Shown here: in pieces, positions 16,147 through 20,854 of the stretch | Position numbering within the stretch: the first letter of the stretch is position 1 | Layout of the letters: each line of letters opens with the position of its first letter | Assembly (NCBI GenBank): GCA_900318275.1 | Contig: ONJY01000020.1 | Coordinates: 1 to 39,303, forward strand | Length of the DNA stretch: 39,303 bases | From: an uncultured Bacteroidales bacterium | GTDB lineage: Bacteria; Bacteroidota; Bacteroidia; Bacteroidales; P3 | Reading direction: 5' to 3' | Position numbers and translations under genes: made by a program | Notes under the pieces: generated by a model | Databases searched by the model: none | Told to the model about the DNA's origin: nothing | Seen by the model: only the letters and a program-made list of their open reading frames with translations

Positions 16147-16188
16147 GCCAAATCCACAGTGTAATGGGTTTGGCGTAGGTCGTTTTTT
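16147..16188 (+). terminator. Probable terminator after the barrel gene
   Basis: GCCAAATCC (16147-16155) pairs with GGGTTTGGC (16166-16174) around a 10-base loop, with one T-G pair, and a T run follows at 16183-16188. The 8-base gap before the T run makes it less than ideal. The right arm overlaps the possible -33 box of the first sigma gene. Confidence 0.55.
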
Positions 16189-16201
16189 ATTAATATTTTT
16201 G
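16169..16201 (+). promoter_or_regulatory. Possible housekeeping promoter of the first tethered sigma gene
   Basis: TTTG (16169-16172), 21 bases, then TATTTTTG (16194-16201) followed by CAC. This fits the primary-sigma promoter type of the phylum. The -33 half lies in the preceding terminator stem, so it may be a coincidence. It is upstream of the bipartite element at 16211-16243. Confidence 0.5.
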
Positions 16202-16210
16202 CACCTTAGT

Positions 16211-16243
16211 GTCAGATTTCGGTCTCCAGTCGGGTATTATATT
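16211..16243 (+). promoter_or_regulatory. Bipartite element, site A (before the first tethered sigma gene)
   Basis: GTCAGATTT (16211-16219), 14 bases, then GTATTATATT (16234-16243), 4 bases before the ATG at 16248. The same two blocks with the same spacing occur at sites B and C. The layout resembles a -35/-10 promoter. If TATTAT is the -10, transcription would start at or next to the A of the start codon. Confidence 0.7.
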
Positions 16244-16247
16244 ATAT

Positions 16248-17726
16248 ATGGAACGTCATAGTGCATACGCAGAATTGCTTCGCCGCCATCGCGCAATGGT
16301 GTGGCGCATGTGCTGGCTGAGGGCACGTGGCGACTGGGAGCAGTGCCGCGACTTGGTACAGGAGGTGTCGGTGGCATTGTGGATGCATCTTGGAGAGTTG
16401 CGCACCGGCATCACGTCCGCCGAAGAGCGCGCATGGGTGCGCTGTGTGACGCGTAGCGCGCTGGACCACAAGACACGCAAACGACGCGTGGAGACACTGC
16501 CACTCACTCCGATGCACGAGGAGAGCATAGCCGACGAGGACAGACAGTCGCAGAAGGAAGACATAGATGACATGATGGCGTCGCTCAGTCACGACGAACA
16601 GCGCATTATGCAGCTGCGGTTGGAAGGTTTCAGAGCGAACGAGATTGCCTCCATCATGGGGCTGAGCAACGACGCCGTCTACCAGCGCATTCACCGCATT
16701 GCGGTGAAGTTGCGTCGCCTGATGGCGGTATTGCTTGTGCTGGCATTTACCACTACGCTGGCCATTGCCGTGGTGCCGCAGTGGCGCAAGGCGGTGTTGG
16801 AGAAAGTCCGCCATAATGAAAAAAATGATTCTCTGCAGGAAGGGATGCCCACCATCGAGCCAAAGCCTGTTTCGGAACCTTCCTACGACACAGTTCAGGC
16901 TGTATATGCTCCGCAGGCGGTACCTGCTGAAGCAGAACCGGCCCCTGTTGCCGAGGTGCAACCGCAGCAACCGCAGCAGAAATATGATTTTCTATACTTT
17001 GGCACAACGGGGGACACGTTGGCATGCTTCCTCTTGAATGATGGGCGCAGTGTAGCGGTGTCATGTATTGCCGCAGGTGCATGCGTTGTTATACCAGAAA
17101 CGGTGGAGCGTGACGGGCATGGCTATGCCGTCACGGCGCTGGCCGACAGTGCGTTCTTCCCGCTCTCGTCTATCCGCAGCGTGAGGTTGCCTGCCTCGCT
17201 GGCCAGCGTGGGCAGAGATGCTTTCTCACTTTGCTCGGGTATCGACACATTGGAGGTTCTTGCCACGGAGCCTCCCGTGGTGGCTGGCGAATGGTGCTTT
17301 TTCGGCATGGCCGACACCGTGCGTCTGCTGGTACCCTGCGGCACCGCCTCAGCCTATCGTAATGCACCGCAGTGGGATGGATTCGAGTATGTCATAGACC
17401 CCTGTGAACCGCAGCATGACCCGCTGCCAGAGGTGACAATCATCGTCAATGGTAATACCATTGTGGTCGAAGGCACAGACGACGAGCCGGTAGAAGTCTA
17501 CGATGCCCAGGGTCGCCTTGTGGCTACCGCACAGTGCAAGGGGCACTGTTCGCTGTCGATAAACATGGATCATATTGATGACCGCACCTTCAGCAAGCGG
17601 GCCACTGGTTCCTATTGGGTGAAGGTTGGCTCCAGGCCGCTTAGGCGTGTATCGCTTTTGGAAAAACATATCCCCGCCAGCAATAACATCTTCATACGCT
17701 ATCGCTCCCCGGAGCTCACTTTCTGA
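16248..17726 (+). CDS. Membrane-tethered ECF-type sigma factor with BspA-like LRR ectodomain
   Basis: A 492-residue protein with an unusual domain order. Residues ~5-75 are sigma region 2 (LLRRHRAMVWRMCW, then DLVQEVSVALWMHL). Residues ~109-157 are region 4 (LSHDEQRIMQLRLEGFRANE, then GLSNDAVYQRIHRI). One transmembrane helix follows (~158-176, VLLVLAFTTTLAIAVVPQW). A Pro/Glu-rich linker reaches ~245. Residues ~260-385 form a BspA-type leucine-rich repeat region (ALADSAFFPLSSIRSVRLP, DAFSLCSGIDTLEVL). The tail ~396-470 resembles a T9SS sorting domain (VNGNTIVVEGTDDEPVEVYD, GSYWVKVG) with a Cys430-x3-Cys434 pair. The sigma part should face the cytoplasm and the rest the periplasm. I start it at ATG 16248, because the element before it and the paralogue's start agree. 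The signal sensed and any proteolytic release are inference. Confidence 0.85.
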   Translation: MERHSAYAELLRRHRAMVWRMCWLRARGDWEQCRDLVQEVSVALWMHLGELRTGITSAEERAWVRCVTRSALDHKTRKRRVETLPLTPMHEESIADEDRQSQKEDIDDMMASLSHDEQRIMQLRLEGFRANEIASIMGLSNDAVYQRIHRIAVKLRRLMAVLLVLAFTTTLAIAVVPQWRKAVLEKVRHNEKNDSLQEGMPTIEPKPVSEPSYDTVQAVYAPQAVPAEAEPAPVAEVQPQQPQQKYDFLYFGTTGDTLACFLLNDGRSVAVSCIAAGACVVIPETVERDGHGYAVTALADSAFFPLSSIRSVRLPASLASVGRDAFSLCSGIDTLEVLATEPPVVAGEWCFFGMADTVRLLVPCGTASAYRNAPQWDGFEYVIDPCEPQHDPLPEVTIIVNGNTIVVEGTDDEPVEVYDAQGRLVATAQCKGHCSLSINMDHIDDRTFSKRATGSYWVKVGSRPLRRVSLLEKHIPASNNIFIRYRSPELTF

Positions 17727-17730
17727 CGGT

Positions 17731-18162
17731 CTACATTACTCGTATATAGACCTTCTGCGCGTCTCCCACCACAGTCATGGTCTCTTCGTCGAGATTGTAT
17801 GTCAGGCGGCTGGGATTTCCTGCGTAGTCGGAGTGAATGTACAGTTCATGGTTCATTGTGTCGAGCCTGTAGGTCATGGCGACGGTGGTGTCTTGCGTAT
17901 ATCCGGGGTTGCTGCCGGAGTAGTAGACGACGCTTTTGATGGAGACAATTTCTCCGGTGGTGTCGGTCTTGAACAACAGTCGCTCGGTGTAGTAGTCAAA
18001 CTCCCCGCCCGGCGTTTCATACCAGGCGGCTTCCCATACGGTGCCGTACAGTGGGTTGTGTGTTGTAACGGCAGTTGCAATGGGTTCTGCTTTGTCTTTG
18101 CTGCATGAGGCGGCCGCCAGTGCCATCGCGGCGAGCAGTGCGTATAAATATGTGTATTTCAT
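17731..18162 (-). CDS. Small lipoprotein, paralogue of the next upstream gene
   Basis: A 143-residue lipoprotein. The signal peptide ends in AAASC with the lipidated Cys20, followed by SKDK. The mature part is beta-rich: NPLYGTVWEAAWYE, ERLLFKTDTTGEIV, YRLDTMNHELYI and LTYNLDEETMTVV. It shares the pattern NPLxGTxW ... L-F-TD-TGE with the lipoprotein at 18180-18593, so the two are tandem duplicates, 17 bases apart and presumably one operon. It converges on the first tethered sigma gene with only 4 bases between stops. Family unknown. Its position between two sigma genes suggests it is a target or an extracytoplasmic partner of them. Confidence 0.78.
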   Translation of the reverse strand: MKYTYLYALLAAMALAAASCSKDKAEPIATAVTTHNPLYGTVWEAAWYETPGGEFDYYTERLLFKTDTTGEIVSIKSVVYYSGSNPGYTQDTTVAMTYRLDTMNHELYIHSDYAGNPSRLTYNLDEETMTVVGDAQKVYIRVM

Positions 18163-18179
18163 GTTTTGTGTTTTTGGGG

Positions 18180-18593
18180 TTATTCTTGCGGGTGAAAGAC
18201 GATACTTCCCTGCGTCAATGTTCTGTTTTCGGGGTTGTAACGAAAGTAGCCCGGGTATGGCGCTTCGTCCTCATAGAGTTCCAAGCCGTTGAGCTCCGGG
18301 TGGAATATGTAGCGGAAGTTGTATGTGGTGTCCCACCAAGGGGAATAGGAGTCTTCGCTGCCAATGTAGCTTTCCCCTGTACTGTCGGTCTGAAAAGCAA
18401 GGCGCAGTTCCTGTACCACACGGATGCCCATAATGTTTGTGTCGTTGTGGTAAACCCACTTGGTGCCGACGAGGGGGTTGTTGTACGCCAGCATTGCGGG
18501 GGTGGGTTCCTCCACTTTCTCTTTTTCGCAGCCTGCCAAGGCCAGTGTCATGGCGGCTATGGTGGCCGTAATAATTAATGGTGTCTTTTTCAT
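18180..18593 (-). CDS. Small lipoprotein, first gene of the lipoprotein pair
   Basis: A 137-residue lipoprotein. I start it at ATG 18593 (MKKTPLIITATIAAM), because the longer open frame to 18665 runs through the promoter element. The lipobox is ALAGC with lipidated Cys22, followed by EKEK. The mature part has NPLVGTKWVYHND, LRLAFQTDSTGESY, FRYIFHPELNGLELY and GYFRYNPENRTL, and resembles the following lipoprotein gene. It is divergent from the second tethered sigma gene and is preceded by bipartite site C, which overlaps TATATTTG, itself a normal -7 box. Function unknown; it probably lies in the outer membrane. Confidence 0.78.
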   Translation of the reverse strand: MKKTPLIITATIAAMTLALAGCEKEKVEEPTPAMLAYNNPLVGTKWVYHNDTNIMGIRVVQELRLAFQTDSTGESYIGSEDSYSPWWDTTYNFRYIFHPELNGLELYEDEAPYPGYFRYNPENRTLTQGSIVFHPQE

Positions 18594-18621
18594 AAAACTG
18601 TTTTTTGGGTTGTGTTCTGCA

Positions 18622-18654
18622 AATATAATACCCTGTTTGGACGCGAAATCTGAC
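18622..18654 (-). promoter_or_regulatory. Bipartite element, site C (before the lipoprotein pair)
   Basis: On the minus strand: GTCAGATTT (18654-18646), 14 bases, then GTATTATATT (18631-18622), with a 28-base gap to the lipoprotein ATG at 18593. The second block runs on into TTTGCA, so it also makes a TATATTTG box (18627-18620) for the primary sigma factor. The spacing is identical to sites A and B. Confidence 0.7.
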
Positions 18655-18670
18655 ATCAACGGCATCAGAA

Positions 18671-18694
18671 TGCAAAATAATTGTTATTTTTGCA
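18671..18694. promoter_or_regulatory. Near-palindromic pair of divergent -7 boxes
   Basis: TGCAAAATAA (18671-18680) mirrors TTATTTTTGCA (18684-18694), with one base of difference in arm length. It provides TATTTTTG (18685-18692) toward the second sigma gene and TTATTTTG on the minus strand (18680-18673) toward the lipoproteins. It lies centrally between sites B and C. Confidence 0.5.
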
Positions 18695-18701
18695 CACTGA
18701 A

Positions 18702-18734
18702 GTCAGATTTATGCCGTCGCAAGTGTATTATATT
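18702..18734 (+). promoter_or_regulatory. Bipartite element, site B (before the second tethered sigma gene)
   Basis: GTCAGATTT (18702-18710), 14 bases, then GTATTATATT (18725-18734), 4 bases before the ATG at 18739. The geometry is the same as site A down to the distance to the start codon, although the 14-base spacers differ in sequence. Confidence 0.7.
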
Positions 18735-18738
18735 GTAT

Positions 18739-19722
18739 ATGGACCGACAGAGTGCATACACACAGCTGCTTCGCCGCCACCGTGCCATGGTGTGGCGTAT
18801 GTGTTGGCGTGCCGCCAGGGGCAATTGGGCTCGCTGCAACGATTTAGTACAGGAAGTCTCCATATTGCTATGGCTGCATTTCGATGTGTTGCGTGCCGAC
18901 GCCAGTCCTGCCGAGGAGCGTTCGTGGGTGTATTGGCAGTGTCGTTCGTCGCTCTACCAACAGCGGCGCCGTCAGAAGCCTTCTATGCTACCTTTGACGG
19001 CCTTGATAGAGGAAACCCTTGCCGACGACAATTCGTTGCAGCAGAAGGAGGAAATAGAGCATTTGATAGCCTCTCTACCCTACGACGACCAGCAGTTGGT
19101 GAGGTTGCACCTCGATGGCTACTATGCCGACGAGATTGCCTCTTTGATGAGCCTCAGCCGTGATGCCGTCTATCAGAGGCTGCACCGTATCATCGTCAGG
19201 GCCCGGCGGGTAGTGGTGCTGGTTTTGTTGGTGCTTTTGGCCTCGGGATTGGCCGTTGCCGTGGTGCCGCAGTGGCGAAGTGCTGTATTTGGTGGCGCAG
19301 TACACCAAGAAGAAATGCATGAGCCACAGCATGAGGAGCCTGCCACGAGGAGGGTTGCGCCGCTAAACGAAGAAGCGGTAGGCATGGAACATGAAGTTGA
19401 GCCCGAGGTTCTGCCAGCGATAGTAGAGGAGCGCATGCCCGATGCCGACGTATTGACTATTCTCTCTGGCATCAATGATAGGAGCGATACCATGCCGCCC
19501 GTGCTCTCTTCTTTGCCACCGGAGCCTACAATATGGGTCAATGGCAACAGACTTATTATCACAGGCGTCTATGATGAACCGGTGAAAGTGTATCAGAAGA
19601 GTGGCGTCCTTGTGTCGTCACAGGTTTGCCACGGTTTCTGTGTAATCGACCTTTTCCCTCGCTGCGACATGGATTATCGCATACTTGTCGGGCGTCGGCC
19701 GGCAGTGACAATATCTCTGTAA
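18739..19722 (+). CDS. Membrane-tethered ECF-type sigma factor, short paralogue
   Basis: A 327-residue protein, collinear with the first tethered sigma factor through residue 180. It has region 2 (~5-75, LLRRHRAMVWRMCW and DLVQEVSILLWLHF), region 4 (~112-157, LPYDDQQLVRLHLDGYYADE and SLSRDAVYQRLHRI) and a transmembrane helix (~158-176, VVVLVLLVLLASGLAVAVVPQW). Both proteins reach VVPQWR at 175-180. An acidic linker rich in Glu and His follows to ~260. The tail ~263-327 (IWVNGNRLIITGVYDEPVKVY) matches the tail of the first protein, including the cysteine pair Cys297-x3-Cys301. The leucine-rich repeat is absent. I chose ATG 18739 by alignment with the paralogue. Its stop is 2 bases before the next gene, so they are probably co-transcribed. 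Regulation may be through site B. Confidence 0.85.
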   Translation: MDRQSAYTQLLRRHRAMVWRMCWRAARGNWARCNDLVQEVSILLWLHFDVLRADASPAEERSWVYWQCRSSLYQQRRRQKPSMLPLTALIEETLADDNSLQQKEEIEHLIASLPYDDQQLVRLHLDGYYADEIASLMSLSRDAVYQRLHRIIVRARRVVVLVLLVLLASGLAVAVVPQWRSAVFGGAVHQEEMHEPQHEEPATRRVAPLNEEAVGMEHEVEPEVLPAIVEERMPDADVLTILSGINDRSDTMPPVLSSLPPEPTIWVNGNRLIITGVYDEPVKVYQKSGVLVSSQVCHGFCVIDLFPRCDMDYRILVGRRPAVTISL

Positions 19723-19724
19723 AT

Positions 19725-20453
19725 ATGCTACCCATGAGACATATAATGCTATTGATGGCGTTGATGCTGCTTCCTGTAGCCAAAGCACAGGATGGTGGCG
19801 AAAGGCTTACGGTGACGGGTACTGTAATCAATGGCGCTGACGGCAACCCCCTACCCTTCTGCTTTGTGCACCTGATGCAGGACGGGCGGAGTCGGGCGAT
19901 GGCGGTGACCGACTATGCAGGCAACTATACTCTGCCGCCGATTGCCGCTGGCACCTATTCTGTTCTTGTGCTGCAGTTTGGCGACACGTTGATGCATTAT
20001 AAAGGCTTAACGTTGTCGCGCGACACTTGGGTGCGCAGTGTAGTGCTGCCACCAAGCGATGAGAATCTTAGCAATATGCCGTACTATGATGCTGGAATGT
20101 TTCGATATTTGAGACCCATTCTTATTGTGGCTCAGAAGAACATGCTGCACAATATGGGGCTGCTGATTACTAGTCCACATGACCCACGTCTGTGGGACTT
20201 TAATGGCCGATTTGATGGCGACCATAGTGCCTCAAGGGATCTCTCGGGTAGCAAAATCCATTTCGGTCTTTTAGTCCACCCTGGTTTTGAAGTGCACCCG
20301 TTAGGTAGTGCTATGAAGAATGACCTGATTCTCTATGGGCGCATTCGGGATGTTTTAATCCCAGCACCAACAGTACCTTGGGAGATAATCGCTCCAGCAT
20401 CCGATAGCACTGCGGTCGATTACAAGATATGGATACTGGGCATTAAGTTTTAG
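19725..20453 (+). CDS. Exported protein with a CarboxypepD_reg-like domain
   Basis: A 242-residue protein with a signal peptide (RHIMLLMALMLLPVAKAQ). Residues ~30-110 match the carboxypeptidase regulatory-like (transthyretin-fold) domain: TVTGTVINGADGNPLPFCFV, TDYAGNYTLPPIAAGTYSVL. This is the fold that opens many Bacteroidota surface and TonB-dependent proteins. The remaining ~130 residues are unfamiliar. Possible starts are 19725, 19734 and 19743; I use the first, 2 bases after the sigma stop. Its location directly behind the second tethered sigma factor suggests a product of that signalling unit, perhaps an envelope partner. No TonB-dependent receptor barrel follows. Confidence 0.75.
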   Translation: MLPMRHIMLLMALMLLPVAKAQDGGERLTVTGTVINGADGNPLPFCFVHLMQDGRSRAMAVTDYAGNYTLPPIAAGTYSVLVLQFGDTLMHYKGLTLSRDTWVRSVVLPPSDENLSNMPYYDAGMFRYLRPILIVAQKNMLHNMGLLITSPHDPRLWDFNGRFDGDHSASRDLSGSKIHFGLLVHPGFEVHPLGSAMKNDLILYGRIRDVLIPAPTVPWEIIAPASDSTAVDYKIWILGIKF

Positions 20454-20504
20454 CTCTTGTGGTAATTTTTTTCACTCTGCGGTGCTACGTGGTCGAGGAC
20501 TTAT

Positions 20505-20638
20505 GGGGGACAGGGGACAGTTGGGACAGTTAGTTTTTAAGCCATACACCACGTAATTATACATCTATATCTGATATAGAAATTATTTTTGGTTTGGTAA
20601 GCTATATTTTGAACTGTCCCAACTGTCCTCTGTCCCCC
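20505..20638. repeat. Long inverted repeat, 27-base arms
   Basis: The left arm 20505-20531 (starting GGGGGACAGGGGACAG) and the right arm 20612-20638 (ending CTCTGTCCCCC) are complementary over 27 bases with one mismatch; 80 AT-rich bases lie between. Each arm is itself built from short GGGACAGTT-type units. It could fold into a very stable hairpin, serve as a bidirectional terminator, or be a dispersed palindromic element. Confidence 0.8.
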
Positions 20639-20748
20639 TTCAAACAACCCTCCCCAAACTCCCCATAACCATAACACACTGTCCTACAGCCCTTACTAAA
20701 GAGAATAACCATTCTTTACCGCATATTCATTGACAAAACAGCCTCTAG

Positions 20749-20792
20749 ACGGCTAGTAAACGGCTAGTAGACGGCTAGTAGACGGTCTGTAG
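20749..20792. repeat. 11-base tandem repeat, four units
   Basis: Units are ACGGCTAGTAA (20749), ACGGCTAGTAG (20760), ACGGCTAGTAG (20771) and a diverged ACGGTCTGTAG (20782). There is no spacer, so it is not a CRISPR. Confidence 0.85.
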
Positions 20793-20854
20793 CCCGTCCT
20801 TAATGTAGGCTAAAATATGCTGTACAAGATGGTACTGCTGGGCAACAATGCTGA

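Follow-up and report, generated by a model that had tools for sequence, protein, structure and literature searches.

Extracytoplasmic function (ECF) sigma factors are described as reading promoters whose usual -10 element is CGT and as positively autoregulated (PMC8103513). Fused ECF sigma factors that are activated by proteolysis are known, such as IutY (ECF243; also ECF48, ECF52 and ECF53) (PMC8999054). Among the Bacteroidetes, the Flavobacterium SM6 promoters are ECF promoters with a CGT -10 that are linked to an ECF/anti-sigma pair and to type IX secretion genes (PMC9723704), and in P. gingivalis a protein with a C-terminal (sorting-tail) domain affects the ECF sigma factor SigP (PMC7712824). 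The housekeeping promoter of the phylum is TAnnTTTG / TTTG (PMC7366714). Here we analysed a stretch of 39,303 nucleotides from an uncultured Bacteroidales bacterium (contig ONJY01000020.1 of assembly GCA_900318275.1; hereafter the window), in which a bipartite element, GTCAGATTT-N14-GTATTATATT (blocks 1 and 2), precedes the genes of two membrane-tethered ECF sigma factors and an operon of two lipoproteins. The comparisons reported below make it very likely that ECF sigma factors of one family use this element as their -35/-10 promoter, with autoregulation and with local surface-protein genes as targets. The features concerned are:

16211-16243, + strand: site A, promoter-type element of sigma A, GTCAGATTT-N14-GTATTATATT, base preceding block 2 is G (exact match; one of the 71 genus copies with at most 2 mismatches)
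18702-18734, + strand: site B, promoter-type element of sigma B, base preceding block 2 is T (exact match)
18622-18654, - strand: site C, promoter-type element of the two-lipoprotein operon, base preceding block 2 is G, the sigma A class (exact match; G kept in the related loci L005-L008)
16248-17726, + strand: sigma A, 492 amino acids (aa), ECF sigma factor (regions 2 and 4) with one hydrophobic segment and an outer part of ~300 aa (Pfam/NCBIfam)
18739-19722, + strand: sigma B, tethered ECF sigma factor of 327 aa, Gln74/Asp142 (Pfam/NCBIfam, residue table)
18180-18593, - strand: lipoprotein 1, 137 aa, ATG 28 nt past site C (sequence)
17731-18162, - strand: lipoprotein 2, 143 aa, 17 nt after lipoprotein 1 and its paralogue (32% identity over 118 aa, alignment)

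Like the promoters of other ECF sigma factors (group IV of sigma-70), the element consists of two short blocks at a fixed spacing, and CGT is found at the -10 of a subfamily with Asp at residue 74 (26 of 27 sigma factors). It differs in its putative -35, which is GTCAGATTT or GTAAGATTT and has no AAC, in its putative -10, which is GGTATT at sites A and C and TGTATT at site B with CGT found mainly in the Asp74 subfamily, and in that the element often abuts the ATG. The resemblance to the IutY type would lie in the union of sigma factor, presumed membrane segment (here read by eye) and outer domain in one protein. Unlike in that type, the segment directly follows region 4 and the outer part resembles leucine-rich repeat (LRR) proteins and sorting tails; no FecR or zinc anti-sigma domain was matched by sigma A or sigma B in Pfam (E <= 1), nor was one present among the NCBIfam matches listed (the best 25 of 51 for sigma A, 25 of 25 for sigma B). 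The SM6 and SigP systems act on genes of the secretion machinery, whereas here many tethered paralogues lie beside local surface-protein genes. Judged by titles and the beginnings of abstracts, we found no paper on tethered Bacteroidales sigma factors of this kind, and a literature search with the letters of block 1 gave nothing relevant by title among the matches listed.

Copies of the element in the window, the genome and the genus

An exact pattern search placed the element at sites A, B and C and nowhere else in the window, while 100 dinucleotide shuffles gave 0 exact matches. The spacers of the three sites are unrelated in sequence. Block 2 ends 4 nt ahead of the ATG at both site A and site B, and site C lies 28 nt upstream of the ATG of lipoprotein 1. 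Thus, the preliminary description of this DNA, which had listed three sites sharing two blocks and a 14-base gap but not their spacers, no fourth copy in the window, and a distance of 4 bases to the ATG at A and B, was accurate on each of these points. In the whole genome (2.28 Mb), the exact matches were the same 3 sites, with 0 for a reversed-pattern control. Allowing 3 mismatches added one place (G000:C39:17096, GTAAGATTT-N14-GTCTTTTATT), a copy whose end lies 4 nt ahead of the start codon (ATG) of a third ECF sigma gene, this one untethered. Given a genome completeness of only 88.6%, the assembly may lack further copies. The counts given here and below rest on pattern and protein searches together with fetched stretches.

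Four public related loci (L005-L008), all from Bacteroidales assemblies (the titles of two name sheep rectum and sheep rumen), carry a copy at each of the three positions (4/4 loci). L006, a close relative, shares the spacers of the window, and those of L005, L007 and L008 have diverged. The sigma A copy of L005 is weaker (3 mismatches), and a 159-aa sigma factor occupies the sigma A position in L008.

Across 59 genomes of the same genus (own included), a search that allowed at most 2 mismatches gave 71 copies, compared with 2 when the pattern was reversed, and 27 of the 59 genomes had at least one copy. The element was present in 25/35 genomes with a sigma match at E <= 1e-25 as opposed to 2/24 without such a match (Fisher p = 1e-6). 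When 295 genomes were drawn from the order, a sigma match at this threshold occurred only in the window's own genome (0/294 others); the sigma family, many members of which are membrane-tethered, was thus seen by us in this genus only. Outside the genus, there were 10 element matches in 9/40 genomes against 2 control matches. Five of these 10, one each from five genomes, were inspected: four were without an open reading frame (ORF) of at least 80 aa starting between -60 and +300 nt of the element start and one fell inside an ORF, and we therefore treat these five as chance matches.

The copies of the genus are concentrated at gene starts. Of the 71, 32 are followed within 250 nt by a sigma gene of the family and 39 are not. 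A wider fetched set comprised 97 distinct copies, in which base 3 of block 1 is either C or A; the spacer is free in sequence and nearly always 14 in length. Fifty-two of the 97 were scored as sigma promoters. The other 45 include four that belong to sigma genes (L080, 140 nt away, L112, L144 and L201, cut or broken) and five without assignment (L094, L131, L139, L140 and L183). Altogether, an ORF of at least 80 aa begins within 130 nt of 39 of the 45, and by eye 36 of these ORFs begin like secreted proteins or lipoproteins, two being the cut sigma genes of L144 and L201 and one neither (L131). The remaining six copies are those of the sigma genes of L080 and L112 and of L094, L139, L140 and L183, some of them near the ends of stretches. 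Among six non-sigma products that were scanned, there are four LRR proteins of the BspA type, of which one also has DUF6383 and another Por_Secre_tail above cutoff; the other two are a protein with a CarboxypepD_reg-like domain and a 311-aa lipoprotein without a family.

Counting from the sigma genes instead of the element, 56 of 72 distinct family genes in the fetched genus genomes have, in the 250 nt ahead of their own start, an element that scores above the 95% level of shuffled sequence (68/84 with duplicates, public copies and fragments). Two blocks at a fixed spacing, ahead of the sigma factor's own gene and of its putative targets, are the arrangement expected of an ECF promoter. The preliminary description had held that random copies elsewhere or a lack of conservation alongside the sigma genes would speak against a promoter. 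The genome has no other exact copy, the genus copies stand nearly all ahead of sigma genes or genes of secreted-looking products, each position is kept in L005-L008, and element and sigma factor co-occur across the 59 genomes.

Covariation of sigma residues with element bases

Base 3 of block 1 is C or A among paralogues, often within one genome. In an unbiased scan of all columns of the sigma alignment, residue 142 was the best predictor of this base (normalised mutual information 0.62, against 0.25 for the largest of 200 shuffle maxima), and residue 74 was the best for the base preceding block 2 (1.03 against 0.29, likewise for 200 shuffle maxima). In sigma A the two codons are:

16467-16469, + strand: codon of His74 (region 2), covaries with the base preceding block 2 (column scan)
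16671-16673, + strand: codon of Asp142 (region 4.2 recognition helix), covaries with base 3 of block 1 (column scan)

In an alignment with SigL of M. tuberculosis, residue 142 corresponds to the beginning of the recognition helix, and residue 74 belongs to region 2.

In the training loci, Asp or Glu at 142 went with C in 42/44 cases and Asn with A in 14/14; in held-out genomes the same pairings were seen in 24/25 and 14/18. For residue 74, training gave His with G (20/20), Asp with C (14/14), Leu, Gln, Arg or Phe with T (20/20) and Asn with A (3/3), and 36 of 39 held-out sigma factors with a trained residue carried the predicted base. This comprised 20/20 of those at least 80% identical to a training sigma factor and 16/19 of those below 80%. 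Two further held-out sigma factors, outside the 39, have Ser74, a residue unseen in training, and carry C. Element scores were cut off at 8.2 for the base-3 counts and at 13 for the column scans and the residue-74 table. Sigma factors shorter than 140 aa or with identical first 140 aa were left out, as were L148, L158 and L162 from the held-out sets, being duplicates of L008, L006 and L005; of 69 held-out sigma ORFs, 67 were long enough, 61 lay outside the dropped loci and 41 entered the residue-74 table.

The same correspondence extends to the putative targets. For 36 other elements in the same fetched stretch as sigma genes, base 3 fits at least one sigma factor there in 36/36, and the base preceding block 2 does so in 32/36, where 1000 shuffles gave a mean of 18.6 and a maximum of 29; the 36 include L007 and L068, which are one and the same locus, and several orthologous loci. 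At L167, the sigma factor has Asn142 and its own element has C, but the neighbouring target has the A predicted by Asn. Together, these data point to a probable two-residue code, in which residue 74 would specify the base preceding block 2 and residue 142 base 3 of block 1. Because the bases vary with residues of the sigma factors, the covariation directly supports the view that the element is the promoter of these sigma factors themselves. With the copies and their conservation, it upholds the earlier suggestion of a promoter type of the tethered sigma factors that would serve their autoregulation.

Several observations weigh against this reading. No scoring element was found for 16 of the 72 distinct sigma genes, although in three of these (L072, L088 and L093) a copy sits upstream of a preceding gene, and copies at up to 2 mismatches are missing from 10 of the 35 genomes in which a good sigma match was found, several of which hold degenerate ones. 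The base-3 rule has exceptions among the held-out sigma factors (4/18 with Asn142 have C, 1/25 with Asp or Glu142 has A) and in training (2/44 with Asp or Glu142 have A or T), and the residue-74 rule misses 3 of the 39 held-out sigma factors and 4 of the 36 targets. The base-3 fit of the targets (36/36) stands without a shuffle control. Furthermore, the covarying sigma factors are related, the held-out genomes belong to the same genus and the tree is weakly resolved. A sign test on well-supported branches was underpowered, with 1-4 independent pairs, none opposite in direction. As the sigma factors are relatives within one genus and so few pairs are comparable, the residue and base changes may not be independent.

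Proposed transcription of the locus and alternative readings

Transcription, its start points, the direction of regulation and the release of the tethered sigma factors are deduced here from sequence. In the proposed scheme, block 1 (GTCAGATTT) would be the -35 read by sigma region 4.2, and block 2 (GTATTATATT) with the base preceding it the -10 read by region 2. The tethered sigma factor would be released, probably by proteolysis. Once free, sigma A would act at site A to transcribe its own gene and at site C to transcribe the two-lipoprotein operon, and sigma B would transcribe its own gene from site B.

The assignment of the operon follows from residue 74. Sigma A (His74/Asp142) has G in its own promoter and sigma B (Gln74/Asp142) has T, and the lipoprotein promoter has G both at site C and in L005-L008. 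Since this G matches the His74 class, the lipoprotein operon is most likely transcribed by sigma A and not by sigma B. The preliminary description had placed the lipoproteins under the control of the tethered sigma factors; the match between residue 74 and base supports such control, though by sigma A alone and not by both. As blocks 1 and 2 are otherwise identical, some cross-reading between the two sigma factors may occur. A scheme in which either sigma factor reads any of the three sites would accord with the identical blocks and with Asp142 in both proteins, but we consider it unlikely given that the base preceding block 2 (G at A and C, T at B) follows residue 74 (His or Gln), and that the same tracking is seen in L005-L008, with Leu74 in L005, L007 and L008.

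Upstream of the element, the following features bear on the start of transcription:

16194-16201, + strand: TATTTTTG, matching the Bacteroidetes housekeeping -7 box TAnnTTTG, 9 bp upstream of site A (sequence)
16169-16172, + strand: TTTG, 21 bp further upstream of the TATTTTTG box of site A (sequence)
18685-18692, + strand: TATTTTTG, housekeeping-like -7 box, 9 bp upstream of site B (sequence)

The element itself contains neither housekeeping box; TAnnTTTG occurs only as this separate box at A and B. More widely, TAnnTTTG lies 8-10 bp upstream of 13/52 sigma elements against 1/45 others (p = 0.001), and it is probably the basal promoter of those sigma genes. At A and B, such a box probably supplies basal sigma factor, to which the element would then add positive autoregulation.

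With ordinary ECF spacing, mRNA from an element so close to the gene would begin 0 to a few nt ahead of the ATG. Block 2 ends 3-7 nt ahead of the ATG in 40/52 sigma elements. Since the putative -10 ends 4 nt before the ATG at A and B, sigma mRNA starting from the element is expected to be leaderless or to have a leader of a few nt, and the leaderless start suggested earlier for these two sites is plausible on the basis of this spacing. It does not apply to site C, from which the lipoprotein mRNA would have a normal short leader; among the copies not scored as sigma promoters that open an ORF, the distance from element to ATG is 15-49 nt in 29/39, at most 6 in 8 and 76 in 2. Leaders as short as those expected at A and B are rare in the phylum: ~3.7% of 5' untranslated regions are below 10 nt in B. 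thetaiotaomicron (PMC7366714), and 5.5% of mRNAs are leaderless in F. psychrophilum (PMC9723704).

The housekeeping-like box also lends itself to other explanations. If transcription started from it, the element at A and B would lie in the early transcribed region and could be the operator of a separate DNA-binding activator or repressor of the sigma and lipoprotein genes. We regard this as very improbable, considering that the element is not symmetric, that site C and 44 of the 45 copies not scored as sigma promoters have no box at 8-10 bp, and that both blocks covary with residues of the neighbouring sigma factor in the regions expected to read a -35 and a -10. Even less credit is due to an RNA leader (riboswitch-like or translational control) in transcripts from the box. 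Such transcripts would start near GTCAGATTT at A and B, yet the blocks show no evident pairing by eye, the spacer is constrained in length rather than sequence, a box accompanies just one of those 45 copies, and it is with residues of sigma factors that the element covaries. A conserved N-terminal coding sequence (MSDF...GII) or leader peptide in place of a DNA signal, suggested by blocks that lie in the same frame at all three sites (TCA GAT TTN ... GT ATT ATA TTN, open at A, B and C), is ruled out by relatives, since 45 of 68 sigma genes whose element ends 2-8 nt before the ATG have an in-frame stop within the 12 upstream codons, often directly before the ATG, so that translation cannot begin upstream of the element in that frame.

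The tethered sigma factors and their outer domains

Sigma A and sigma B have sigma-70 regions 2 and 4 and no region 3, as expected of ECF sigma factors. TIGR02937 and Sigma70_r4_2 were matched above cutoff in both, and Sigma70_r2 fell just under it (23.7 and 21.7 against 24 bits). In both proteins a hydrophobic segment, read by eye from the sequence, follows region 4; in sigma A it is:

16716-16775, + strand: hydrophobic segment directly after region 4, around LMAVLLVLAFTTTLAIAVV, presumed membrane anchor (sequence, by eye)

The outer part of sigma A has a weak match to BspA-type LRR below cutoff and a tail resembling type IX secretion sorting domains (profile match). An AlphaFold model of sigma A (mean predicted local distance difference test score 47) was too poor and was excluded from fold searches. 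Lipoprotein 1 matched no Pfam family at E <= 1.

When profiles from small alignments were compared, ten tethered sigma factors and four secreted targets matched in their C-terminal tails with 98% probability, and a Cys-x3-Cys pair is invariant in the ten aligned sigma tails. By profile comparison, the C-terminal 70 residues of both sigma factors of the window are similar to the sorting domains of type IX secretion. Searched singly in Pfam, the tail of sigma A matched Por_Secre_tail below cutoff (E 0.013), that of sigma B gave no match and that of a 380-aa sigma factor of L074 matched no sorting family; three tails of long sigma factors all matched DUF6383, one above cutoff (2.7e-5, 24.6 bits). 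A search of the sigma-tail profile against PDB sequences returned, among the best 60 of 94 matches, mostly short repeat motifs of beta-propellers and none named as a sorting domain.

Very long tethered sigma factors of 737-815 aa were seen at L074 (4937-7273, - strand), L078 (from 5936, + strand), L089, L091, L092, L104, L160 and L161. Those read, L160 and L161 excepted, have a long BspA-type LRR-like part past the membrane segment, and in that of L074 there are apparent remains of a signal peptide. Over 499 aligned positions, the outer part of the L074 sigma factor (779 aa) shares 77% identity with an LRR protein of secreted type from another genome (L135), and the gene of this LRR protein carries the element. 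Not all outer parts are LRR-like: that of the tethered sigma factor at L090 (1974-3089, + strand) looks by eye like a small lipocalin-type domain (LGKWF...), and no lipocalin-type family was present among the Pfam matches listed for it.

More distant sigma factors of the same genomes (L075 at 7613, - strand, L116, L118, L119, L123, L125 and L145) have possible, mostly low-scoring elements. Their block 1 differs, for example GTTACTTTT, GTCCACTTT or GTAGACTTT, and these may be further -35 classes. In the window itself, the intergenic region 20500-20850, after the gene at 19725-20453, holds near-repeats of GGGGGACAGGGGACAGTTGGGACAG and its inverse together with tandem copies of ACGGCTAGTA.

As far as the literature searched goes, this ECF family is undescribed. 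A code that can be read at the level of sequence would make regulons predictable from protein sequence and testable base by base, and would provide matched pairs of sigma factor and promoter from Bacteroidales that may be orthogonal. A broader picture, which we offer as speculative and rather doubtful, is that one genus runs dozens of parallel tethered-sigma circuits separated by the two-residue code, in which each outer domain copies the surface protein under its control (a type IX-sorted LRR protein, its tail or a relative). By such mimicry, the sigma factor would sense the state of its own product, for example ligand bound or export blocked, and would then switch on itself and that product. 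Product mimicry is thus put forward as a hypothesis for the sensing mode of tethered sigma factors. With membrane-anchored sigma factors linked to surface LRR proteins that carry sorting tails, the question of what such sigma factors sense becomes testable.

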